IMG/VR virus record: IMGVR_UViG_3300025286_000113
Span: 1 to 26,575 of that record
Source of the DNA: a virus
Length of the DNA stretch: 26,575 bases
Reading direction: 5' to 3' (one strand)
Every line of letters begins with the position of its first letter. The stretch's first letter is position 1. The notes below the pieces were generated by a model. It made no database searches. It had not been told where the DNA came from and saw only the letters and a list, made by a program, of their open reading frames with translations. The translations under genes and the position numbers were made by a program. Shown here piece after piece: positions 874 to 26,280 of this stretch.

Positions 874-1635
874 TTAATATGGTGAATCGCTTTTTGATTC
901 GTCAGATCCATGTTTGGTTTTAACTAAACCTTTTCCTACTCTATCAGCAAAATTTTTAGCCATATCATAGATTGATTTATTAGTTACAGGACCAACTTTA
1001 GTTACATCCCATCCAAACCATGTTCCTTTGTCATTAGACATCTGAACAGTCTTTAGATTATAAATGTGGCTATATGTTGGCGGAGTAAATAATCCATTTT
1101 TACCCTGCATCTTAATACCCATCATCATTGAGTTCCATTTTCTACTCACTTTTAATTGAGTAGCTTTCATAGAAATCAAAGCATCTGATGGACTACCATT
1201 CATGAAAATAACATAATGGTTCGCAGTATTTTCTAAATAGTTACCATTAGGTAAACGATCTTTGAAAGATTTATCACGAGTAGTTGTACTCACAATATCA
1301 CTGTCTGCCTTATGAAATGCAATTGGAGAACCCTGACTTGAGCCTCTATCTTGCCATTCTACATACTGTCTTTCATAAAAAACTGGAATAACATCTATTC
1401 CTTTTTTACCATCGAAAAGTTGATTTGTGACAGTATTAAATATCATTCCTGGTTCTGCGCCCTCAATAAATTTTTCATTCATCTTGTTCACTTCAGGAGA
1501 TAGTTGTCCTAAAACTTTCAGAAATGGTAAAGCAAAATCTTCTTGCTTCATATTCTGAGAGCCTGCATTTGCATCTACCTCGAATAAATTCGTAGACAAT
1601 GCACCTGCATTTTCTTTTTTTGCTACTTCGTTCAT
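874..1635 (-). CDS. Conserved phage replication-module protein, possible ssDNA-binding protein
   Basis: This 253-residue protein is of a type often seen in phage replication modules. Its core contains LPFLKVLGQLSPEVNK (residues about 36-51), a GxIxNTVTN segment near 64-71, and a stretch rich in Tyr, Phe and Trp (VFYERQYVEW) followed by TTTRD. No catalytic motif is visible. The tail (SDESKSDSPY) is mildly acidic and ends in an aromatic residue, as single-stranded DNA-binding proteins often do, but it is less acidic than T7 gp2.5. The gene sits between a coiled-coil protein and the primase. The start is the ATG at 1635, with AAGGAAA about ten bases upstream; it begins two bases after its neighbour's stop. 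The ssDNA-binding role is inference from context and the tail. Confidence 0.55.
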   Translation of the reverse strand: MNEVAKKENAGALSTNLFEVDANAGSQNMKQEDFALPFLKVLGQLSPEVNKMNEKFIEGAEPGMIFNTVTNQLFDGKKGIDVIPVFYERQYVEWQDRGSSQGSPIAFHKADSDIVSTTTRDKSFKDRLPNGNYLENTANHYVIFMNGSPSDALISMKATQLKVSRKWNSMMMGIKMQGKNGLFTPPTYSHIYNLKTVQMSNDKGTWFGWDVTKVGPVTNKSIYDMAKNFADRVGKGLVKTKHGSDESKSDSPY

Positions 1636-2537: not shown

Positions 2538-2571
2538 TTGACAATATAATAATTAATTGTTATCTTGTCAA
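2538..2571. promoter_or_regulatory. Antiparallel overlapping promoters inside a 34-bp palindrome
   Basis: The arms are TTGACAATATAAT (2538-2550) and GTTATCTTGTCAA (2559-2571), which match as an inverted repeat at 11 of 13 positions around the 8-bp palindrome AATTAATT. Each arm carries a perfect -35 box. On the plus strand TTGACA is 17 bp from TATCTT (2561-2566), giving a start near 2573 and a leader of about 17 nt for the helicase. On the minus strand TTGACA (2571-2566) is 17 bp from TATATT (2548-2543), giving a start near 2536, one base before the ATG at 2535. A consensus TATAAT at 2545-2550 could serve as an alternative plus-strand -10. Symmetry also suits a dimeric regulator. Confidence 0.6.
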
Positions 2572-2589
2572 CTAGAAAGAAGAAAAATT

Positions 2590-4020
2590 ATGAAATACAA
2601 ATTTAAGACAAAACCATATGCACATCAAATAACTGCGTTGGAAAAATCGTGGAATAAAGAAACTTATGCTTATTTTATGGAAATGGGTACGGGTAAAACT
2701 AAAGTATTAATTGATAATGCTGCCATGCTTTATGATAAAGGCAAAATAGATGGCCTTTTAATTGTTGCACCTAAAGGGGTTGTAGGTACGTGGTATAATC
2801 AAGAAATTCCTATACATCTTCCAGATCATATAGAAAATGTGACTGTATTGTGGCAAGCAAATATTACTAAAACTCAGCAAAAAAAACTAGACGAATTATT
2901 TGAACCAGAATCTATTTTTCATATTCTGATTATGAATGTAGAAGCTTTTAGCACTACTAAAGGAACAGAATTTGCCCATAAATTTATATCTAGTCATAAT
3001 ACATTGATGGTTATCGATGAATCTACTACTATTAAAAATCCTTCAGCTAAAAGAACTAAGAGTATTCTTAAACTATCCACTGAAGCCAAATATAGAAGAA
3101 TAATGACAGGATCGCCTGTAACTAAAAATCCGTTAGATTTATATAGTCAATGTGAGTTTTTAAGTCCATGGTTATTAAACTTTGCTTCGTATTATTCATT
3201 TAGAAACAGATATGCAGAAATGAAAACTATACATGTTAGTGGACGATCTATACAGGTTGTTGATAAATTTAAGAATTTAGGTGAATTATCAGAAACATTA
3301 AAAAATTTTTCCTATAGAGTATTAAAAGAAGATTGCTTAGATTTACCTCCTAAAAACTGGACTAAAAGACATATCACTTTATCACATGATCAAAGAAAAA
3401 TTTATACTGAAATGAAACAAACAGCACTTGCACATTTAAATGGTAAAGTTACGAGCACCATGACTATTCTTACTCAATTAATGAGATTGCATCAAATTAC
3501 ATGTGGCCATTTTACCGCAGATGATGGCACTACACAGCCTATAGATAATAATAGAACTAGTGAGCTGATGAATGTAATATCTGAGATGGAAGGTAAAGCC
3601 ATTATTTGGGCTCATTATCAGTATGATATAAGAGAAATTATTAGAGGTATAGTTGAGAAATATGGTCCAGGTTCCGTGGTTGACTATTATGGGCTCACGC
3701 CTCAAGAAGAAAGACAACCTAATATTACGAAATTTCAGTCCGACCCTAGGTGTCGATTCCTTGTTGGAACGCCCTCTACGGGCGGCTATGGCATCACTCT
3801 GACGGCTGCAAACACCGTAATATACTATTCTAACGGATATGACCTAGAGAAGCGATTACAGTCAGAAGACAGAGCGCACAGAATTGGTCAAAAAAAGAAT
3901 GTCACTTATGTGGATATTATAGCAGAAGACACGGTTGACGAAAAAATTGTAAAAGCTCTACGTACGAAGATTAATATTGCTTCTCAAGTATTGGGAGAAG
4001 ATCTTAAATCATGGATTTAG
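2590..4020 (+). CDS. SNF2-like superfamily 2 helicase
   Basis: This is the only plus-strand gene I accept. It encodes 476 residues from the ATG at 2590, chosen over an upstream TTG at 2557 because AGAAAGAAG lies just before it and the homologous region begins there. Motifs in order: KPYAHQ (8-13, Q-motif-like), GTGKT Walker A (33-37), IVAPKGVVGTW (58-68, motif Ia), DEST Walker B (143-146), TGSP (173-176, motif III), and QSEDRAHRIGQ (424-434, motif VI with arginine fingers). It should be an ATP-driven DNA translocase acting in replication, recombination or remodelling of replication forks, like other phage SNF2-type enzymes. The last third is clearly G+C-richer than the first two thirds. It is transcribed away from the primase unit and towards hsp20. 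Confidence 0.88.
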   Translation: MKYKFKTKPYAHQITALEKSWNKETYAYFMEMGTGKTKVLIDNAAMLYDKGKIDGLLIVAPKGVVGTWYNQEIPIHLPDHIENVTVLWQANITKTQQKKLDELFEPESIFHILIMNVEAFSTTKGTEFAHKFISSHNTLMVIDESTTIKNPSAKRTKSILKLSTEAKYRRIMTGSPVTKNPLDLYSQCEFLSPWLLNFASYYSFRNRYAEMKTIHVSGRSIQVVDKFKNLGELSETLKNFSYRVLKEDCLDLPPKNWTKRHITLSHDQRKIYTEMKQTALAHLNGKVTSTMTILTQLMRLHQITCGHFTADDGTTQPIDNNRTSELMNVISEMEGKAIIWAHYQYDIREIIRGIVEKYGPGSVVDYYGLTPQEERQPNITKFQSDPRCRFLVGTPSTGGYGITLTAANTVIYYSNGYDLEKRLQSEDRAHRIGQKKNVTYVDIIAEDTVDEKIVKALRTKINIASQVLGEDLKSWI

Positions 4021-4568: not shown

Positions 4569-5054
4569 TTACTCTACTACTCTTCCACCTTGCCACTTCA
4601 TTTCTGGAAGGCCATTCTCATACCGTTTGCCATCGAATGTCAGAATTTGTTTTCTGTTAGCACCCTTTTCATTATAACTAACGTGTATCCAGCCCGCTTG
4701 TCCATCGTCGGGTTTGTAGAACTCGAGAATACATTGATCAAAATCTACATTATTAGTCAGCCAATAAGCGACTTTAATATTAGGGACTCCATTGATTTCG
4801 AAGTCAACAGCCTGGCCCTTCGCATGTTGCGACGTTTTTTTGCTGCCGATCGCTTCACACAGCGCCTCGCTGCGGTAGCCCGAGGACACCATAATGGGTA
4901 AATCAAAATGTGCACGCACTGGTTCCAAAATTTCATAACATACGTTTTCTAAATTTTTTATTTCACCAGCTCCTGGCGTATTGTCAATACCTTTACGAGC
5001 TGCTACCATTGAACGGGTCATCTCTTCAAGAGTGAAGTGTTTTGAAAGTTGCAT
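4569..5054 (-). CDS. Peptidase M15 family endolysin (D,D- or L,D-peptidase)
   Basis: The 161-residue protein is a peptidase M15_3-type zinc enzyme, expected to cut peptidoglycan cross-links or stem peptides for lysis. It opens with the typical SKHFTLEEMTRS, then SSGYRS at 57-62, SQHAKGQAVDFEI at 75-87 (zinc ligands H77 and D84), and GWIHVSY at 121-127 (third ligand H124). A length near 160 aa without a cell-wall-binding domain is normal for Gram-negative phages. It has no signal peptide, so it needs a holin; several small membrane proteins lie directly upstream. The middle of the gene reaches about 55% G+C, far above its neighbours. The ATG at 5054 follows the previous stop after four bases and has a poor Shine-Dalgarno. 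Confidence 0.88.
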   Translation of the reverse strand: MQLSKHFTLEEMTRSMVAARKGIDNTPGAGEIKNLENVCYEILEPVRAHFDLPIMVSSGYRSEALCEAIGSKKTSQHAKGQAVDFEINGVPNIKVAYWLTNNVDFDQCILEFYKPDDGQAGWIHVSYNEKGANRKQILTFDGKRYENGLPEMKWQGGRVVE

Positions 5055-16904: not shown

Positions 16905-17068
16905 TATGCCATAAAGAAAGCTTCCGCTTCCGCCTCATCTTTTAAATCCTGTTGAAAGGATGTGTTTAATTTTTGCACGATACTATCAACATCTCTAACA
17001 AATGATTGTTGTATTTGTTGATCGTATTGTTCTAAAGGTTGTGTTAATGATTGTACAATTCTAGCCAT
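16904..17068 (-). CDS. 54-residue helical protein between tail genes
   Basis: A short gene lies exactly between two virion genes and is joined to each by a one-base TAATG overlap, which is strong evidence that it is real. The product begins MARIVQSLTQPLEQYDQQIQ and ends with an acidic stretch (DLKDEAEAEAFFMA). It is predicted helical with Gln-rich heptads (about 13-42) and has no membrane span. It might be a small tail-completion or chaperone-like protein, but no family is recognised. Typical gene callers with a length cut-off above 54 aa would miss it. Confidence 0.6.
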   Translation of the reverse strand: MARIVQSLTQPLEQYDQQIQQSFVRDVDSIVQKLNTSFQQDLKDEAEAEAFFMA

Positions 17069-19230
17069 TATCTTCTTCCATCTGCTTGTATATCTAGTCT
17101 AAAAGTTCCAAGTTTCCAGTGTTGTTGGGTACTGGTGTTGTCTACTTTTAAAGCTATGGCTCTTGCCCTAGCTCTTGTATCTATTTTAGTCGTTGTTGTC
17201 GTAGATGTAAAGGGTCCAAGTGAAGAACTTGCTTCTGAATCTGTTGGATAGTTTTTCAAGTTTAGTGTCACTCTTGCATCTCCAGTTTGTGATAAAAAGT
17301 CTGGAAGCACTCTTCTAATTTTCATCATGTATTCACCATCACCTCTTAAATCTGCTCCACCACCTTGGCCCACAGATATATCAAAATCTCCTGATTGAAT
17401 GCTTGCTGAAACACCAGTTCTTGCTCCTGCTTTAATTTGATCTTGTCCTGTTTCATGTTCATAGTAAGTTGTAACACCATCAGTATTGCCAACGGTTGCA
17501 TCACTGGTTGCATCAGAATCATATTCTGTTGCATGTGGTTTTCCAAATACAGCTGAGTCTGCCCAAGCAGATCGAGCCAATGAACTTGTAGTCCATACTG
17601 GTCTCTCTGGTGTTGAATCCATAAAGTTATAAGTAACCGATCTATTATTAGATGCAGCTGTGCTACCTGGATAAAACCAAGTTACTTCACCAAATAAATT
17701 ATTTAATCCTGCATAAATATGGTTTTTAGGAACTGTATTAATATCATCGTAAACATAGTCCTCAACTAAACATGCTAAAGATTCTAGTTTACCAGTATAT
17801 CTAAAGAAACCATTCTCTGACATCCAGTAAGCAGAACCATCAACCTCAACAGCGGCATGTTTTCCCATCAATCCACAGTTCGTTCCAACCTGTTGAAACG
17901 AGAAAGTAAAAGGCGCACCAACGAATCTCATAATAAATAAAGATGTATCAGTCCATACGTAAATTGCATCCCGACCTCTAATCGCTGCCACGATCCGTGT
18001 TCCATCGGCCAGTCTCTGTGTACCAGCGGTATTGATTGCTGAAGGCGCGTATGAAGTTGAAGCATTGATGCTCTCCTGATCCGACCATCTAATATACATA
18101 TCATCCTGAGTAGATGTAGTTCCAATAGTTGTTTCAGTTCCAAAAAATACTAAGTGCCTATCGGGTGTAGATACTAAAGTTTGAACTGCTGCTGTTGGTG
18201 CATTGGCAACAATTGTTGCTCTAGTAGATGTTGCTCCCGTTGCATCTGAATCCCATTCAAAAGTTGCACCATCTGCAATTGTTGCAATAAGTTTATTTCC
18301 ATAATTGTCCAAGGACCATAGTCCAGGAGATGTTACAATGTCACCTGTTTGTGATGCGCCCCATTTCGTATAGTCTGATGCGTCATAAATTGTAGCTCCG
18401 TCTGAATGAGAAGCAGCTGTCGTATTATCTGACCCTCTTGTTAATCCTGATATAGTATTAGTACTTGTGGTGTTTGAAGTATAGACAATACGTTCACTGT
18501 CTATTAAAACTGTTCCTGAAGTTGGAAAAGCTGATGAATCATCAAGAACAATACTAGATGACCCTGAAGTTAATGCACCATCTAGGGTTGAGGTTGCTTC
18601 ACCTGTAACTTGACCACCCCATAATCCTAGCCCCCAACCAGCAGCTGATGCCTCTAACGCAGGTCCAACTTTATAATAATGTCTAACTCTTATTCCACCA
18701 GAAGTACTAGCTCCTGATCCAGATTCCACTGATCCCATTTCAACGGTAATTGTTGTTGAACTTGGAACGGTTGTAACCATAAAAGTTTTATCATCAAAAT
18801 CATCGGAGTCAAAATTAGAATTAGTAATAGATGAAAAATTATCTAAATAAACAATATCATATTTAGAAATACCATGAGCAGATGAAAAAGTTATAGTAAC
18901 AGTTGCATCACTTTGCGTTGTTGAAAAAGCACTTGTTAAATTTGATGTACTTTTAAGAGGAGTTATATCATAAAAAGCTCCTCCAGAATACACATATAAA
19001 ATTCTATTAGTTCCAAGTGCTGCATATTTAATACCACTTGCATTAACAAAATGGTGTAAGGCTGTATTTCTTCCTGTAAGAGTGACATCCCCTAATTGAG
19101 ACCAACCACCCACTTTTTCAGGCGATCCATATCTAAATCTAACATAATCACCGCTAATCCATTGGCCTTCGCCGCCCGTTGCTGTGACTTGTTTATTGAA
19201 ACCTGGTTGAAACCTTAATTTTTGTAGCAT
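17068..19230 (-). CDS. Tail / packaged-DNA stabilisation-type virion protein
   Basis: The 720-residue protein begins with LRFQPGFNKQVTATGGEGQW, then DYVRFRYGSPEKVGGW, a signature I associate with P22 gp10-like tail or DNA-stabilisation proteins of podoviruses and marine phages. The body is rich in beta-strand sequence with many aromatic turns (for example GLWSLDNYGNKLIATIADG and YMSENGFFRYTG-like blocks), fitting a propeller or beta-rich tail protein. An insertion at about 100-290 is Ser/Thr-rich and includes SERIVYTSNTTST-type strands. It would form part of the tail tube or nozzle. The start ATG at 19230 has AAGG six bases upstream, and a stem-loop lies just before that. The family call is moderately certain, the exact position in the tail is not. 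Confidence 0.65.
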   Translation of the reverse strand: MLQKLRFQPGFNKQVTATGGEGQWISGDYVRFRYGSPEKVGGWSQLGDVTLTGRNTALHHFVNASGIKYAALGTNRILYVYSGGAFYDITPLKSTSNLTSAFSTTQSDATVTITFSSAHGISKYDIVYLDNFSSITNSNFDSDDFDDKTFMVTTVPSSTTITVEMGSVESGSGASTSGGIRVRHYYKVGPALEASAAGWGLGLWGGQVTGEATSTLDGALTSGSSSIVLDDSSAFPTSGTVLIDSERIVYTSNTTSTNTISGLTRGSDNTTAASHSDGATIYDASDYTKWGASQTGDIVTSPGLWSLDNYGNKLIATIADGATFEWDSDATGATSTRATIVANAPTAAVQTLVSTPDRHLVFFGTETTIGTTSTQDDMYIRWSDQESINASTSYAPSAINTAGTQRLADGTRIVAAIRGRDAIYVWTDTSLFIMRFVGAPFTFSFQQVGTNCGLMGKHAAVEVDGSAYWMSENGFFRYTGKLESLACLVEDYVYDDINTVPKNHIYAGLNNLFGEVTWFYPGSTAASNNRSVTYNFMDSTPERPVWTTSSLARSAWADSAVFGKPHATEYDSDATSDATVGNTDGVTTYYEHETGQDQIKAGARTGVSASIQSGDFDISVGQGGGADLRGDGEYMMKIRRVLPDFLSQTGDARVTLNLKNYPTDSEASSSLGPFTSTTTTTKIDTRARARAIALKVDNTSTQQHWKLGTFRLDIQADGRR

Positions 19231-19299: not shown

Positions 19300-19932
19300 T
19301 TATTTAGATAATTTAAAGCCTTTATACCAAGCAGGCAAGCCTAAATGTGGACGTTTGTCAAACATATTTTCCTTGGCTCCTGGTGTGTTTTTATTATTAT
19401 AATGTAGAAAAGCTTGAACACATTCTTTACCTTTAAACTTCTCTCTCCAATGCTCTAATCCACACCCTTCGTAAATTAACATATCCCCTGGTTTTAAATG
19501 TACTTTTATTCCTTTCATCCCTTCTTTACCAGAAGGTTCAAGATAAAGTGCCCATGGATCTCCTCCAAGATTCATCGTCGTAGAGATTTCACAGCTAAAT
19601 CGATCCTTATGTCTTTTAAGAACATCTCCGTTTTTATAAATTCTGGCATAAGTATAAGCAGGATATAATTTTAATTCTGTGGCCTTTTCCATAATAGGTT
19701 GGATTTTTAACATTAACGTTTCCGCAGCTATATTTCCATATTGAGAATAAGTGTTAGGAATTTGATCATCATCATAACTGCCTATAATACTTTCAAAAGG
19801 AGAAAAATATCTAGTGGTCTTACACGTATCATAAACTTGTTTTTGCATAGAAAAATAGTTTGCAATAAAGGTTGCTAAATCTTTTGACACAGCTGAACGT
19901 ATCACTGCATATTTATTTTTTTTAAACGTCAT
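19300..19932 (-). CDS. 2OG-Fe(II) oxygenase, array member 1 (HKD type)
   Basis: The 210-residue protein has the double-stranded beta-helix pattern of a 2-oxoglutarate/Fe(II) oxygenase. The iron-binding triad is visible as H108-K-D110 in KRHKDRFSCEIS and H161 in GLEHWREKFKG. LKPGDMLIYEG (146-156) forms the strand before the distal histidine. The conserved start of the fold is YPAYTYARIYKNGD (90-103). It should couple decarboxylation of 2-oxoglutarate to hydroxylation of an unknown substrate. Related HWREPF-type proteins are known to me from cyanophages. It overlaps the preceding oxygenase gene by eleven bases (stop inside its start region) and is last in the array. A 2OG co-substrate arginine is not obvious at the usual spacing. 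Confidence 0.8.
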   Translation of the reverse strand: MTFKKNKYAVIRSAVSKDLATFIANYFSMQKQVYDTCKTTRYFSPFESIIGSYDDDQIPNTYSQYGNIAAETLMLKIQPIMEKATELKLYPAYTYARIYKNGDVLKRHKDRFSCEISTTMNLGGDPWALYLEPSGKEGMKGIKVHLKPGDMLIYEGCGLEHWREKFKGKECVQAFLHYNNKNTPGAKENMFDKRPHLGLPAWYKGFKLSK

Positions 19933-20551
19933 CTGTAATTTTCTCTGGGTTTAAATAAATATTACCTGAAATACTAATCCTCTTTTTATTAGATAAATAA
20001 AAAGGATAAACACAATGGCTAAATTTTGAAGGAAAAAATAACATAGTTCCTTCATGGGAAGGTTCAAGATTGTAATCACAAGTTGAAACTTGTCCTAATG
20101 CATTAGTATAAAATAATTGAAAGGAATTGGGATATTTAGAATTAGAATGCTTAACAAATGGTAATTCACATTCTTTTTTAAAACTAGATGGAATTTTAAT
20201 CCATATTACAAAAGAAAAAAGCCCACCGTGGTTATGAATAGGGTTAAATTCATATTTTTTTTGAAAATTAACCCAAAAACTATTTAGAATATACTGACAA
20301 TTTTTAGTTAAAAAATGAGGAACTGCTATATCTGTATAAAGATTATTATATTCATCAATACTAGGTAATAAAATATTTTTAAAAAACCAATCATCTTTAT
20401 CTACAAGAGTATTAGATTCTTTTATATTACCTGCAAGAGTGTGATTAGTTTTTTCTTTTTTGTTTTTAATATAGTCTTTTAATCTTGAAATTGTTTCTGA
20501 GGAAAGTTTTTGTTCAATTATTCCTATATTAGGAAGATTAATACGAGTCAT
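19922..20551 (-). CDS. 2OG-Fe(II) oxygenase-like protein, array member 2 (HxH type)
   Basis: This 209-residue protein shows NPIHNHGGLFSFVIWIKIP (103-121), the HxH-type metal site (H106, H108) followed by the first core strands, and later GTMLFFPSKFSHCVYPF (168-184) with distal H179 and R191 in KKRISISGNI, the likely 2OG-binding residue. This places it near the TIGR02466-like group, where an HxH pair replaces HxD. The N-terminal 80 residues are helical and charged. Expected reaction: 2OG-dependent hydroxylation of an unidentified substrate. The start is the ATG at 20551 in an ATGA overlap with the previous gene. The sequence is AT-rich and has poor ribosome binding site, so coupled translation is likely. 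Confidence 0.75.
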   Translation of the reverse strand: MTRINLPNIGIIEQKLSSETISRLKDYIKNKKEKTNHTLAGNIKESNTLVDKDDWFFKNILLPSIDEYNNLYTDIAVPHFLTKNCQYILNSFWVNFQKKYEFNPIHNHGGLFSFVIWIKIPSSFKKECELPFVKHSNSKYPNSFQLFYTNALGQVSTCDYNLEPSHEGTMLFFPSKFSHCVYPFYLSNKKRISISGNIYLNPEKITDDV

Positions 20552-21180
20552 ACTTTTATAGCCATTTCTTTAGGCACTGCTTGTATATTCCAATGGATAA
20601 ATCTAAATGGTTCTATACCGTGGTCTACGACATATTCATGTTCCAAGTATCCTGGAAATATAATTAATGTTCCAGGTTTAGGTTGAAAGTGAACTTTTTC
20701 ATGACCTGACCAAATACCTTTTATATCTGGTTTCATGTTTAATTTAGTTGTGCGTGCTCCTGTTTTTGGCTCGTGAAAAACTGGATAAGAAGTTTTGTCA
20801 CTACATTTTAAAAAATAAAAACCTGATACATGTTGATTCCAATGTATGTGTGCAGAATGATGACCTCCCCCTTTTTTAGAAAATTCTTGTACCCACATTT
20901 CAGAAAATATAGTTTGGTATTGTTTTATATCATAACCCATCTGATCTAAAAATTCCCAAGACTTCATACCAATATAATTTCTAAAATCTAAAAAATCATT
21001 ATCATGTAACAACGGTGTTGAGTGATAAGATCTTCCAAAGTCACCATATTTTTTTATATAGGGTTTTTCTTTTTTCTTTGCCTCTTTGATATATTTGTTT
21101 GATGCCTTATTTAAAGAATTAACAAATTCTGGTTTTTCTTCTGACCACATAGGTGTACAAAAAAAATTACTTACATGCAT
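20548..21180 (-). CDS. 2OG-Fe(II) oxygenase-like protein, array member 3 (HxH type)
   Basis: The 210-residue protein carries GGGHHSAHIHWNQHVSGFYF (104-123), with the HxH metal pair at H111 and H113, then TLIIFPGYLEHEYVVDHG (171-188) with distal H181, and R193 in EPFRFIHWNI as the likely 2OG anchor. It is clearly related in plan to member 2 but not close in sequence, so the two are old paralogues or separate acquisitions. TIGR02466-like phage proteins have this layout. The N-terminus (VSNFFCTPMWSE) is short and typical for that group. The substrate is not shown. It starts one base after member 4 ends and ends in an ATGA overlap with member 2. Confidence 0.8.
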   Translation of the reverse strand: MHVSNFFCTPMWSEEKPEFVNSLNKASNKYIKEAKKKEKPYIKKYGDFGRSYHSTPLLHDNDFLDFRNYIGMKSWEFLDQMGYDIKQYQTIFSEMWVQEFSKKGGGHHSAHIHWNQHVSGFYFLKCSDKTSYPVFHEPKTGARTTKLNMKPDIKGIWSGHEKVHFQPKPGTLIIFPGYLEHEYVVDHGIEPFRFIHWNIQAVPKEMAIKV

Positions 21181-21181
21181 A

Positions 21182-21820
21182 TTATTTAAATGGATACCCT
21201 AAGTTCCAACACACTAATGAATATCTCACTCCTTTCGTCACCGGTTTAACCCTATGCCATACAAATGAAGGAAATATAATAATAGAACCTTTTGGTAATA
21301 CCTCTGTTGCTTTCCTTAAATGTTTTAATTCATCTCTCATGTGTGGATCATAATCTCTAAAATCAAATTCTAATTCTCCACCACTATATTCAGAACCATC
21401 TGTTAACTGACAAGTCATTGAAAGTTTTCTAATTTTACCATGATTAGGATTAGCTTTATTTTTTCTTTCATAAGACTTATTCCAACTGTCACAATGCCAA
21501 TCATAATATTGATTTAGCTTATATTTTGTAAATTGACAATTTTCTGATCTATCCCACTCAAAATTCCATCCAGCTTTTTTATTTGCTGCATGAACATAAG
21601 GATGTAATTCTTTGTAAATCCAAGTATCATCTAACCATACTACATCAGAATCTCTTTTTCTTTTCATATCTCTAATCTTTTCTTTAGATAACTTTCCATC
21701 ACCAAAACCACCTGTTCTAGCTATCACTTCTTGTTTTGATAAAGCATATTTAATTACTTCATCACAAAATCTAGGAGTTAATGCAGATTTAAAATACCAA
21801 TAATAATTAAATAAATTCAT
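21182..21820 (-). CDS. PKHD-type 2OG-Fe(II) hydroxylase, array member 4
   Basis: This is the most canonical member (212 residues). QYYDWHCDSW (104-113) gives H109 and D111; GSIIIFPSFVWHRVKPVTKG (178-197) gives distal H189; and R199 in VRYSLVCWNLG is ten residues after it, the standard 2OG-binding spacing. RKLSMTCQLT (131-140) and YSGGELEFDF (145-154) complete the PKHD-hydroxylase core, a family related to prolyl hydroxylases. A full set of ligands predicts an active enzyme. Known PKHD relatives act on proline or similar residues, but the substrate in phages is not established. It overlaps member 5 by fourteen bases and ends one base before member 3. Confidence 0.88.
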   Translation of the reverse strand: MNLFNYYWYFKSALTPRFCDEVIKYALSKQEVIARTGGFGDGKLSKEKIRDMKRKRDSDVVWLDDTWIYKELHPYVHAANKKAGWNFEWDRSENCQFTKYKLNQYYDWHCDSWNKSYERKNKANPNHGKIRKLSMTCQLTDGSEYSGGELEFDFRDYDPHMRDELKHLRKATEVLPKGSIIIFPSFVWHRVKPVTKGVRYSLVCWNLGYPFK

Positions 21821-22310
21821 AAGTTATAGTCTGTACAAAATTTAAAGAATCTTTTTGTATGTTGATTAAATAATACATACAAGTTGAAGGAAACATGACA
21901 AATTTATTATTTGTTAAAGGTATATCCCATGACCTTCCTTTACGTCTATTGTCATCATAATGTATTCGAACAGAGCAGTCCTCAACTTTTACACCATATA
22001 AAAGTGTAAAGTCAGGTGAGTTTTTTAAATCTACTGGATCAATATTAAGTAATGGAATTGTAATTTCATTGGGTTTATATACATTACCCCAAGTTTCTTT
22101 GCTAATAAGTCCAATCTTATGTTCTACTTTTATATGTTCTCGAATATACGTATTTAGCATATCCCAGACCTTTGAGAATTCAAATTCTGAATTTTTTAAA
22201 TGTGTTACAAATATATCTAAGGTTAATACATCTCTTTGAATTTCAAAACCATTAGGCATTGAAACATCACCATAATATAACGCTGTCTCAGATAATACTT
22301 TCTTTTCCAT
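21807..22310 (-). CDS. Degenerate 2OG-oxygenase-like / cupin-fold protein, array member 5
   Basis: The 167-residue protein is first in the oxygenase cassette. Its second half, CSVRIHYDDNRRKGRSWDIP (112-131) and NNKFVMFPSTCMYYLIN (134-150), then NFVQTITYEFI, has the strand order of a double-stranded beta helix. H117-Y-D119 resembles an HxD pair, but where the distal histidine should be there is Tyr (146/147). It therefore looks either inactive or adapted to another metal or ligand. I recall cyanophage proteins with this same FPST-YY pattern, without known function. The promoter-like sequence at 22321-22348 lies immediately upstream, and AAAGGA precedes its ATG. It may be a non-catalytic partner or substrate-binding subunit of the neighbours. 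Confidence 0.55.
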   Translation of the reverse strand: MEKKVLSETALYYGDVSMPNGFEIQRDVLTLDIFVTHLKNSEFEFSKVWDMLNTYIREHIKVEHKIGLISKETWGNVYKPNEITIPLLNIDPVDLKNSPDFTLLYGVKVEDCSVRIHYDDNRRKGRSWDIPLTNNKFVMFPSTCMYYLINIQKDSLNFVQTITYEFI

Positions 22311-22348: not shown

Positions 22349-22834
22349 TTATGCTAGTGTATCAACTAAAACCCAACCTGCATTATTATCTGCCTGATAT
22401 GCAGATTCATTCCATTGATATTCCCAATGGTTATTGTTTAATGAGTTTTGTGTTTCTTGTTCAGAAGTTAAATCTGGAGCAGCACCAATCGGTGAAATCC
22501 AAGTAAAATCACTTTTTACCCATGATGGATATGGTTGTTTAGGCCAAAAGATTTCATTAGTTTTATCCCAAGTATATCCTATACCTGCATAATTTCCTCT
22601 AAACGCTTTTGACTGATCAGAGGCTACTGTATTATCATTATTATAATATTTTCCACCTTTTGTGTTATAAGAAGTTTGAATCCAAAGATGTGCAGGCCAA
22701 TTATTATGTAGTTGTAAATAAGCTTGTCCTACTGATTCGTCTGCTGCTCCATCACCATCTAACATATCGGAATCAGCTAAAGTAACTACAGTTAAAACCA
22801 CATTGGCTTCTGATATTTTTGCAAAGTGTGCCAT
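22349..22834 (-). CDS. Small tail-fibre-associated protein of cyanophage type
   Basis: The 161-residue protein starts AHFAKISEANVVLTVVTL and contains WIQTSYNTKGGKYY (51-64) and FRGNYAGIGYTWDKTNEIFW (78-97), then PYPSWVKSDFTWISPIGAAP. This combination is very familiar to me from T4-like cyanophages and other marine phages, where such proteins lie among tail-fibre genes and are called structural or hypothetical. Trp and Asn are abundant and no enzyme motif is seen. It starts two bases after the Gly-rich fibre gene ends, so it is probably co-translated and may be a fibre tip, chaperone or assembly partner. It lies immediately upstream of the oxygenase cassette. Confidence 0.65.
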   Translation of the reverse strand: MAHFAKISEANVVLTVVTLADSDMLDGDGAADESVGQAYLQLHNNWPAHLWIQTSYNTKGGKYYNNDNTVASDQSKAFRGNYAGIGYTWDKTNEIFWPKQPYPSWVKSDFTWISPIGAAPDLTSEQETQNSLNNNHWEYQWNESAYQADNNAGWVLVDTLA

Positions 22835-23934: not shown

Positions 23935-26280
23935 TTAATCGTCGTTAGCTGCATCAGTTGTGTAGAATAGTTTAACACCATGTAATCTAGCATCCCCACC
24001 AGAATCATCATTTGAATCTGACACATCTCTAAAAATTCTAAAAAAACAAAGTTGATCATCAGCAGGAGAACCAGCTATCGTAACGGCTCCACTTTCTGCG
24101 CTAACATTTACTTCTTCAACAGCGCCTTGTTCTGTATCATCAACAACAATTGCTGTTCCATAAGCAGTGTCAATTGTATCATTGTCTCCACAAGCTACAC
24201 CTTGTAGTCCCCAAGAAACACCACCTGTAGCAGCTAGTCCAGACCAAAAAACTTGAAATGTTACAGTGCCTAAATTCCATGATTTAGGAAAAGCAACTGA
24301 AAATTGTGCGTGTTCATCACTGTCTTTATCAAAATCTAAAACACGCATATCAGGTCTTCCTGAAGTTGTTTCTACTGATGTTATATCTGCGCATGGGTTA
24401 CTTTCAGTTGGGTTCATTGCATTTGAAGGAACCCAGATAGTTTGTTTACCAGCAATGTTAACAGCCGTACTACCATTTGTAAGTGTACCTGAAACATCGC
24501 AAGTTCCATTAATATCTATAGCTGTTGCTGTTAAATCTATTTCATCAGTTGCACCAATAGATAATACTGTTGCACTTGATCCATGTACGAATTGACTAGT
24601 ATCATTGAAACATATTTTATTTGTTGAATTTAAAGTTAGGCCTGTTCCATCTGTATGAGTTAAAGTTGTATCTTGATCATCTCCAAATTTTAATACAGTT
24701 GAATCAGAATCAAGAACAAGATCATCTCCAATCCAAACATCTTTAGCAACTCCTAAACCTCCTGCTAATGTTAAGGCTGCTGTACCTGTTGCACTAGCTT
24801 CAGTCGTTGCCGAAAGTGCTACAACTCCTGCAGAACTAATTGCTACGGCATCGGTATCAGAAGCAGATCCAATATTTCCAGCATCTGGGATTACAATACT
24901 ACCACCTGCGGTGAATGTCCCACCACCAGCTAGTGTTCCTGCAAAAGTCACATTTGCACCACTAAATGTAGCTGCTGTAGTTGTTCCTGATTTAATTATT
25001 AAATCCCCACTTGTATTTGTAGCACTACCGAAAGTAGTACCCCCATCTTTAAAGAATATATCTCCACCATCGGCATCTAAAATAATGTCTGTACCAGCGT
25101 CAATAGTTGCAAGTGCAGAAGAAGAAATAGTTAAATCTGTACCATCACCTTCAATTTTTTCTCCATCATCACCAAATACCATTCCAACATCGTTAGGTAG
25201 ATTTACATCAGCGGTTGCTGTTAAATTAATATCGGCACCTGAAGTAATTGTTAAATCTGTGCTGTCCCCTTCAATTTTTTCCCCAGTTCCAAATGTGATT
25301 CCAACGTTTGCTGGTATAACTACATCTGAAGTAGCTGTTAAATTAATTTTAGCACCTGAAGTAATTGTTAAATCTGTACTATCACCTTCAATTTTTTCCC
25401 CAGTTCCAAATGTGATTCCAACGTTTGCTGGTATAACTACATCTGCTGTGGCTGTTAAATTAATATTATTACCAGATATAGTTAAATCTGTTCCATCACC
25501 TTCAATTTTTTCGCCATCATTACCAAAAGTCATTCCAATATCTGCAGGAATATTGATGTCTGCACCTGATGTTATATGTAAATCTGTTCCATCACCATAA
25601 ATATATTCTCCACCTTTGTCATAAAAATAAAGTCTACGATCATCCGCCATACGAACGACTTCACTACCATCATACTGTTGGAAAACTAAATCATCGGAAT
25701 CAACACCTAATTTTAAAATCTGAACACCAGCAGTGGTATCCATATCTAATGTTAATTGAGTTGTCCCAGCGTCTTTAAATTCTACATTACCGCCCGCTGC
25801 ATCAATAACAATATCTGCAGCTGAATCTAAAGTAATATCTCCTGTTCCTGATGTAAGTTCATTTGAACTAATATTAGTGTCAATAACATCAGTACCATTA
25901 CAATAAAGTATTTTTGCCCCTTTATCAGTTGCAGCCCAAGTAACTCCAGTTTGACCTGATACCAGAACTTGAACAGTATAAGCTCCTGACGTTGAATTTT
26001 TTATAACCCACCATTTTTCTTTTGCTGTTACAGTTACAGTTTGGTTTCCTGTAATGGTTCCAGATAATTCAACAACTGCATTTCTTGCAGAATCACCTGT
26101 AGAACCATCTGTGTAAGTTAAAGCTGTTGTTTGTACGCCGCCAGCAATTGATTGTGATACATAACCACGAATTGCTTCTTCTAAGATTTGTAAATTGGTA
26201 TTAGTTTTTGTTCCCCAGTTACCGGCGTTCTCGCCAGTGGTCATTAACTCTGTGCCAATATCCGTATATGTCGATGCCAT
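23935..26280 (-). CDS. Tail fibre with tandem 39-residue repeats
   Basis: The 781-residue protein begins STYTDIGTELMTTGENAGNW and then GTKTNTNLQILEEAIRGYVS (a fibre N-terminus I recall from marine phages). Residues 217-400 contain about four and a half tandem repeats of 39-40 residues, each with GEKIEGD-TDLTI, alternating hydrophobic residues and Gly turns, which predicts a beta-helical or trimeric shaft. Similar modules (IVIDAAGGNVEFKDAGTTQ and IILDADGGDIFFKDGGTT) flank them. A beta-rich C-terminal domain (about 640-781) may bind the receptor. Its start overlaps the upstream partial gene as TAATG. Membership in a fibre is well supported; the receptor is unknown. Confidence 0.72.
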   Translation of the reverse strand: MASTYTDIGTELMTTGENAGNWGTKTNTNLQILEEAIRGYVSQSIAGGVQTTALTYTDGSTGDSARNAVVELSGTITGNQTVTVTAKEKWWVIKNSTSGAYTVQVLVSGQTGVTWAATDKGAKILYCNGTDVIDTNISSNELTSGTGDITLDSAADIVIDAAGGNVEFKDAGTTQLTLDMDTTAGVQILKLGVDSDDLVFQQYDGSEVVRMADDRRLYFYDKGGEYIYGDGTDLHITSGADINIPADIGMTFGNDGEKIEGDGTDLTISGNNINLTATADVVIPANVGITFGTGEKIEGDSTDLTITSGAKINLTATSDVVIPANVGITFGTGEKIEGDSTDLTITSGADINLTATADVNLPNDVGMVFGDDGEKIEGDGTDLTISSSALATIDAGTDIILDADGGDIFFKDGGTTFGSATNTSGDLIIKSGTTTAATFSGANVTFAGTLAGGGTFTAGGSIVIPDAGNIGSASDTDAVAISSAGVVALSATTEASATGTAALTLAGGLGVAKDVWIGDDLVLDSDSTVLKFGDDQDTTLTHTDGTGLTLNSTNKICFNDTSQFVHGSSATVLSIGATDEIDLTATAIDINGTCDVSGTLTNGSTAVNIAGKQTIWVPSNAMNPTESNPCADITSVETTSGRPDMRVLDFDKDSDEHAQFSVAFPKSWNLGTVTFQVFWSGLAATGGVSWGLQGVACGDNDTIDTAYGTAIVVDDTEQGAVEEVNVSAESGAVTIAGSPADDQLCFFRIFRDVSDSNDDSGGDARLHGVKLFYTTDAANDD
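25081..25632 (-). repeat. Tandem 117-bp repeats in the tail fibre gene
   Basis: Residues 217-400 of the fibre repeat with a 39-40-residue period. The two best copies share a 61-bp identical stretch (25268-25328 and 25385-25445), 117 bp apart and in frame. Others are diverged. Such repeats let shaft length change by recombination. Confidence 0.75.

Follow-up and report, generated by a model that had tools for sequence, protein, structure and literature searches.

The window analysed here is the 26,575-base virus record IMGVR_UViG_3300025286_000113 of IMG/VR, and its phage is related to the phages of the ocean bacterium Pelagibacter. This report concerns five of its genes, M1 to M5, whose products have the fold of 2-oxoglutarate (2OG)-Fe(II) oxygenases and which, as a set, probably hydroxylate the phage's own host-recognition protein. 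Five overlapping minus-strand open reading frames (ORFs) fill positions 19300-22310 and are transcribed in the order M5, M4, M3, M2, M1; overlaps of 14, 4, and 11 bp occur at three of their four junctions, and the largest gap is the single base between M4 and M3 (Table 1). A first-pass annotation, made from the letters alone, had described five tandem and dissimilar genes at this place. All five are indeed present at these minus-strand coordinates, and every pair of members gave a blastp E value of at least 0.005 and an hhalign probability of at most 30%. A recent tandem duplication was rejected for want of significant pairwise homology by either program; an apparent hhalign match between M1 and M2, which disappeared once the columns were tied to the reference, is taken to be an alignment artefact.

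Active-type members of the cassette

M2 and M3 pass the cut-off of PF13759 (38 and 48 bits, respectively; cut-off 27), and M4 passes that of PF13640 (54 bits; cut-off 27). Both M2 and M3 fall under the curated cut-off of TIGR02466 (19.5 and 50 bits vs. 62.5), and on profile evidence they are assigned to PF13759 only. M4 likewise stays under the curated cut-off of the YbiX/PiuC PKHD family PRK05467 (52.8 bits vs. 143) and matches PiuC structures by sequence (E 3e-4). The double-stranded beta-helix was found in M2 to M4 through Pfam and in M1 through AlphaFold2 and Foldseek; with the AlphaFold2 model of M5 added, all five genes proved to be of the oxygenase fold. The earlier claim that members 1 to 4 bear full sets of iron ligands was also borne out, these residues showing no or almost no exceptions among the 59-238 relatives of each member: H106, H108, H179, and R191 of M2 occur in 59/59 sequences, H111 and H181 of M3 in 237/237 (H113 in 236 and R193 in 235), and H109, D111, H189, and R199 of M4 in all 238. 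The Arg that anchors 2OG is thereby fully conserved in M2 and M4 and almost fully in M3.

M1 matches phrog_2954, a PHROG profile labelled “ferrochelatase,” with an E value of 1.5e-51, and a Pfam search returned no match over cut-off, ferrochelatase included. Its AlphaFold2 model (predicted local distance difference test score, pLDDT, 88.6) is a 2OG barrel that resembles prolyl 4-hydroxylase (P4H), and the nearest structures in the PDB are chains of the P. putida P4H (best E 3e-9), taken from its complex with EF-Tu; natural-product enzymes are also found among the PDB neighbours. The ligands H108, D110, and H161 (HxD...H) are conserved in 237/237 sequences. The identity of M1 as a ferrochelatase was rejected on the absence of a Pfam match and on a fold that is a 2OG barrel and not a chelatase. 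As modelled, M1 is a P4H-like 2OG oxygenase, for which the label of phrog_2954 is a misnomer, and its predicted fold, together with the proline correlation described below, suggests that it may function as a prolyl 4-hydroxylase.

A conserved barrel without ligands

Searches of Pfam, PHROGs, and NCBIfam gave nothing significant for M5. The AlphaFold2 model of M5 (pLDDT 87.9) nevertheless has the barrel of the 2OG oxygenases: a Foldseek search against the PDB gave 216 matches at E <= 0.001, and among the matches listed most are PHD2 or P4H, the best being 3bvc (E 5e-7), followed by PHD2 and P4H, with TlxI (7vbr) also present. The viral models nearest to M5 include phage 2OG oxygenases. The places of the ligands were assigned by motif alignment with M2, which reads W-x-N....E..P-x-[H>L]-N-[H>I], FPSxxx[H>Y146], and [R>N157], the register of the first motif being drawn from the sequence and not from model coordinates. 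At these columns (L88, I90, Y146, and N157) 229 relatives have no conserved His or Arg, and Y146 is invariant (229/229). The metal triad and the 2OG anchor are absent from M5, which is therefore filed as a member of the fold and not as an oxygenase.

The first-pass annotation had given member 5 a matching fold with a damaged site. The fold stood, and the damage did not: the ligand-less state is fixed in the 229 relatives, and the ratio of nonsynonymous to synonymous substitutions (dN/dS) of M5, 0.128, is as in the active members (0.112 for M1, 0.128 for M3, and 0.151 for M4). A damaged gene was rejected on both grounds, and because the loss is fixed under purifying selection like that on the enzymes, M5 is a conserved pseudo-oxygenase.

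Order, linkage, and co-variation of the unit

Scans of IMG/VR recovered at least 592 relatives each of M1, M3, and M4, 314 of M5, and 108 of M2, and the loci of the best 80 relatives per query were analysed. An adhesin-U-M5-M4-M3-(M2)-M1 unit, where U stands for the gene directly upstream of M5, recurs in hundreds of IMG/VR contigs. Among complete loci, M5-M4-M3-M1 is the most frequent order (79 loci); M2 is found between M3 and M1 in 14, and 12 have a six-gene form in which a further gene, only weakly M3-like, lies between M2 and M1. The genes are not scattered in related phages, as the first-pass annotation had allowed they might be were its idea of a unit mistaken: M4 directly follows M5 in 230/231 loci with room for it, and M1 directly follows M3 in 81/81. 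In loci fetched with other queries, M5 precedes M4 in 166/173 and M2 stands upstream of M1 in 9/187. The U family lies directly before M5 in 256/265 loci, low-complexity clustering places a Gly-rich adhesin-type gene before U in 191/196, and a VIIRY-type motif ends 168/196 of the Gly-rich proteins before U. The distances of U, M5, M4, M3, and M1 co-vary (r 0.62-0.84), compared with 0.13-0.34 for the downstream tail gene; on a shared set of 27 loci the values are 0.40-0.64 within the unit vs. 0.13-0.33 with the tail gene.

Member sets vary between phages, and the pair of M1 and a PF13640 gene looks like the conserved core. Such a gene adjoins M1 in most contigs with M1 (M1+) and also in phages Mosig, Bellamy, and S-CAM8, and the PHROG profile phrog_3531 joins an M1-like half to an M4-like half. 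On one contig (L385, G001:C1:2300-2638) the PF13640 gene beside M1 has in-frame stops and is possibly a pseudogene or an assembly error. Genes of phrog_274 (“DNA endonuclease V”) and phrog_2297 (“DNA endonuclease”) lie inside 2OG clusters (L085:5698-6180, L369:4696-5208, L370:5722-6737). The phrog_2297 gene of phage S-SM1 (L370:5722-6246) passes PF13640 and the phrog_274 gene of 023Pt matches it weakly; these two endonuclease labels look wrong too.

Adhesin proline content follows M1

The adhesin of the window contains 6.9% proline, with the motif GNTPPVTPPQG, and is the candidate substrate. U homologues follow Gly-rich adhesins in unrelated phages, with and without 2OG genes, and phages with and without M1 (M1+ and M1-) can therefore be compared. 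Isolates formed the discovery set, in which proline was a post hoc lead that was then tested on separate data. The main Gly-rich ORFs of isolates hold 4.6-8.6% proline with a phrog_2954 gene and 1.3-3.7% without one; a single Gly-rich ORF of HTVC023P, at 1.6%, may be an off-frame reading. Among SAR11 phages, adhesin proline is higher in HTVC023P and HTVC033P (5.8-7.6%) than in HTVC025P, which is M1- (2.6%).

The test set was drawn from IMG/VR with three U queries and without the use of M1; it consisted of U-anchored contigs, whose fragmentary state limits the comparison. Median adhesin proline per locus was 6.85% with M1 (n = 17), 3.0% without M1 and with another 2OG gene (n = 43), and 2.1% with none (n = 148), as against 3.3, 4.4, and 4.3% in the other ORFs of the same three classes; it reached about 6% or more in 16/17 M1+ loci. 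Across the phages with an adhesin module the medians were 6.85% for M1+ and 2.5% for M1-. Among whole contigs of at least 30 kb, 11 with M1 (4.9-10.5%) were set apart from 37 without it (0-5.4%) with an area under the curve (AUC) of 0.99 (p 6e-7). Three contigs that seemed to be M1- with high proline (L385, L387, and L399) each carry M1 elsewhere. Over isolates and contigs, proline is the most discriminating of the 20 residues (AUC 0.99; next R, 0.78). The effect is not one of base composition, because M1+ contigs are lower in proline in their other proteins (3.26 vs. 4.15%). Independent contrasts on a U tree of 86 taxa gave r 0.45 (p 1e-5; other-ORF control -0.01), and disjoint sister contrasts ran in the expected direction in 5/5 cases.

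U itself was rejected as a dedicated substrate, being present in many phages without a 2OG Pfam match. The idea that a Gly-rich adhesin requires a 2OG gene was also dropped, such adhesins having been found without any.

Related gene clusters in other phages and viruses

Clusters of this kind were already known, and five genes are not exceptional. The first-pass annotation had held that phages commonly carry one or two such genes and that five adjacent ones stand out. Marine phages contradict this: Pfam gives more than a dozen 2OG matches in HTVC008M, which has five 2OG genes in tandem, and S-SM1 has a longer run. Several 2OG genes per cyanomyovirus were reported earlier (Sullivan, 2010; PMC3037559), Fe(II)-dependent oxygenases of marine phage islands were tabulated under host recognition (Mizuno, 2014; PMC3909814), HTVC023P-type phages were described as having eight distinct 2OG genes close to one or two “ferrochelatases” (Wittmers, 2022; PMC9599517), and phrog_61 and phrog_2954 are enriched in seasonal viruses (PMC11561400).

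The HTVC023P-type pelagiphages (HTVC023P and 023Pt_psg01) are like the window in having the same genes in the same order. In HTVC023P, gp64-67 are M5, M4, M3, and M1, and 023Pt_psg01 has M5, a phrog_274 gene, M4, M3, and M1; in these records M5 is a “hypothetical protein,” and M2 is an addition of the window. HTVC033P carries M4-M3-M1. At the equivalent site HTVC027P carries, in reverse orientation, three 2OG genes different from these (L086:7093-8754). The published account differs from ours in that M1 is called the ferrochelatase partner and the oxygenases are placed near it and not adjacent (PMC9599517). In the marine T4-like phages HTVC008M, Mosig, S-SM1, and S-CAM8, tandem 2OG genes and a phrog_2954 gene lie near fibre or baseplate genes, as in the window, and in Mosig and S-CAM8 a PF13640 gene stands beside the M1-type gene, as in the unit. 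These clusters differ, however, in their orders and members, no M5 was found in them, and that of HTVC008M is on the strand opposite to its neighbours, unlike the cassette of the window.

A virus-encoded 2OG enzyme is also known from chlorella virus PBCV-1, whose prolyl 4-hydroxylase is linked to 4-hydroxyproline in viral proteins (Eriksson, 1999, as cited in PMC9301287). That enzyme is single, belongs to a eukaryotic virus, and has no adhesin linkage. Text searches of the literature, with the terms used, found no paper on the hydroxylation of phage virions by 2OG enzymes. The re-identification of M1, the conserved pseudo-oxygenase, and the link to a substrate are new in the present analysis.

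Proposed mechanism and alternatives

Of the three substrates named in the first-pass annotation, the fibre or adhesin is the best supported, by linkage and by the proline correlation. Our tentative proposal, to which we give slightly less than even confidence, is that the cassette serves the post-translational modification, by prolyl hydroxylation, of the phage's own tail-fibre adhesin. Lying between structural genes, it would act on the adhesin of the gene just upstream. M1, with M4 as its PF13640-type partner, would hydroxylate prolines, and perhaps neighbouring residues, in this Gly/Pro-rich protein, and M3 and the optional M2 would contribute additional hydroxylations or modify different sites. 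The role proposed for M5, a barrel without catalytic activity, is to bind or position either M4 or the substrate, like TlxI in its pair with TlxJ. In that fungal heterodimer (PDB 7VBQ), a catalytically incompetent 2OG-fold subunit boosts its active partner (PMC12141560). What TlxI lacks is the Arg that binds 2OG; in M5 the metal ligands are missing as well. TlxI/TlxJ belongs to fungal secondary metabolism, and the dimerisation of M5 is our proposal. Hydroxyproline might stiffen or diversify the receptor-binding tip, with its polyglycine-II- or polyproline-II-like loops, and might affect adsorption. The Gly-rich adhesin gp38 of phage S16 combines a polyglycine-II sandwich with loops that bind the receptor (PMC6630733), and hydroxyproline could therefore plausibly tune such loops. 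It is possible, if on balance doubtful, that marine phages run a dedicated and horizontally mobile prolyl-hydroxylation system for receptor-binding adhesins, with a conserved dead subunit, in a collagen-like maturation of the tail tip whose genes have so far been read as those of haem or iron metabolism.

Several observations weigh against hydroxylation of the adhesin. M1 has no obvious canonical 2OG-anchoring Arg or Lys, the invariant R163 and Q173 being candidates. Any moron would likewise be expected among late genes, and the HTVC027P record has three 2OG genes at the site and no phrog_2295 adhesin. Gly-rich adhesins also occur in phages without a 2OG gene, and hydroxylation is therefore not essential to them. 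The proline trend is purely correlational, and because M1 presence changes about five times on the U tree, true replication is small. Finally, some M1- contigs, which may be incomplete, reach 4.9-5.4% proline: L423 and L449, which have no PF13640 gene, and L407, L451, and L614, which have other 2OGs.

The small number of independent M1 changes would also suit a history in which the genes share no pathway, being morons acquired independently at one tolerant site, and in which shared ancestry accounts for the proline correlation. We regard this as unlikely. The members are not detectably paralogous, their sets differ between phages, and the G+C of the cassette is below that of its flanks in 81/81 loci (0.29 vs. 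0.38 among the IMG/VR relatives), all of which agree with separate acquisition; against it stand the fixed order, the overlaps, the co-variation, the succession of M5 and M4 in all loci but one, and sister contrasts that all point the same way. It also seems improbable that the set oxidises a small molecule or a host surface sugar as part of auxiliary metabolism. The genes have been published as auxiliary metabolic genes, with a 2OG oxygenase paired with a “ferrochelatase” (PMC9599517; PMC11561400). The 2OG superfamily is chemically versatile, and natural-product enzymes stand among the PDB neighbours of M1, but the haem link falls because the supposed “ferrochelatase” has the 2OG fold too, and the adhesin linkage and the proline trend would be left unexplained.

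Host-takeover genes are often clustered morons. This, and the P4H-EF-Tu complex that is the closest solved structure to M1, would suit enzymes that modify translation or surface proteins of the host, such as EF-Tu, to aid takeover; we see only a small chance of such a role, which does not predict the strict linkage to and co-variation with the adhesin and U genes or the proline trend, for a cassette that sits among structural genes. Other phages use 2OG enzymes on bases. Hydroxylation of nucleobases in the phage DNA, one of the substrates first suggested, is nonetheless most improbable, even with DNA hypermodification genes in some HTVC023P-type clades (PMC9599517), since none of the five members has a Tet/JBP or AlkB-type Pfam match and the cassette lies beside adhesin genes and not replication genes.

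Among the “auxiliary” genes of ocean phages that lack an explanation, 2OG genes rank with the most frequent, and the “ferrochelatase” partner has so far been read ecologically as iron or haem metabolism (PMC9599517; PMC11561400). If M1 does hydroxylate the adhesin, that reading would be wrong and the genes would belong to host recognition, and a layer of protein modification on adhesins could bear on host range, on the stability of the virion, and on how infection depends on oxygen and iron. Because the cultured phages HTVC023P and HTVC033P carry the genes, hydroxylation of the adhesin is directly testable by virion proteomics.

Genomic context

The cassette is AT-rich within the window (29% G+C vs. 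37% elsewhere) and is flanked by genes for structural proteins (Table 1).

Table 1. Coordinates of the cassette and of other features in the window
Feature	Coordinates	Strand	Match or remark
M1, 210 aa	19300..19932	-	phrog_2954 match; AlphaFold2 barrel; ligands H108/D110/H161
M2, 209 aa, optional member	19922..20551	-	PF13759 2OG oxygenase, HxH type
M3, 210 aa	20548..21180	-	PF13759/TIGR02466-like 2OG oxygenase, HxH type
M4, 212 aa	21182..21820	-	PF13640 2OG oxygenase, PKHD (YbiX/PiuC)-like, HxD type
M5, 167 aa, conserved pseudo-oxygenase	21807..22310	-	barrel without metal or 2OG ligands
U, 161 aa, fibre-associated accessory protein	22349..22834	-	phrog_7759 (E 1.4e-28); directly upstream of M5
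Gly/Pro-rich adhesin-like protein, 361 aa	22837..23922	-	PF21722, 48 bits (cut-off 24.3); phrog_2295
Large fibre-like ORF	23935-26280		phrog_31104; upstream of adhesin
Virion protein/tail gene	17068-19230		phrog_3287; downstream of M1
Pam3 gp34-like protein (strong match)	874-1635		PF23977 (E 4e-73); phrog_2402
DNA helicase	2557-4020	+	phrog_62
M15-type peptidase	4569-5054		likely lysis enzyme

Within the Pam3 gp34-like protein, a weak, sub-cut-off Tad2-like stretch is probably a chance match. The arrangement of the M15-type peptidase and the phrog_62 helicase resembles the end of HTVC023P-type genomes.

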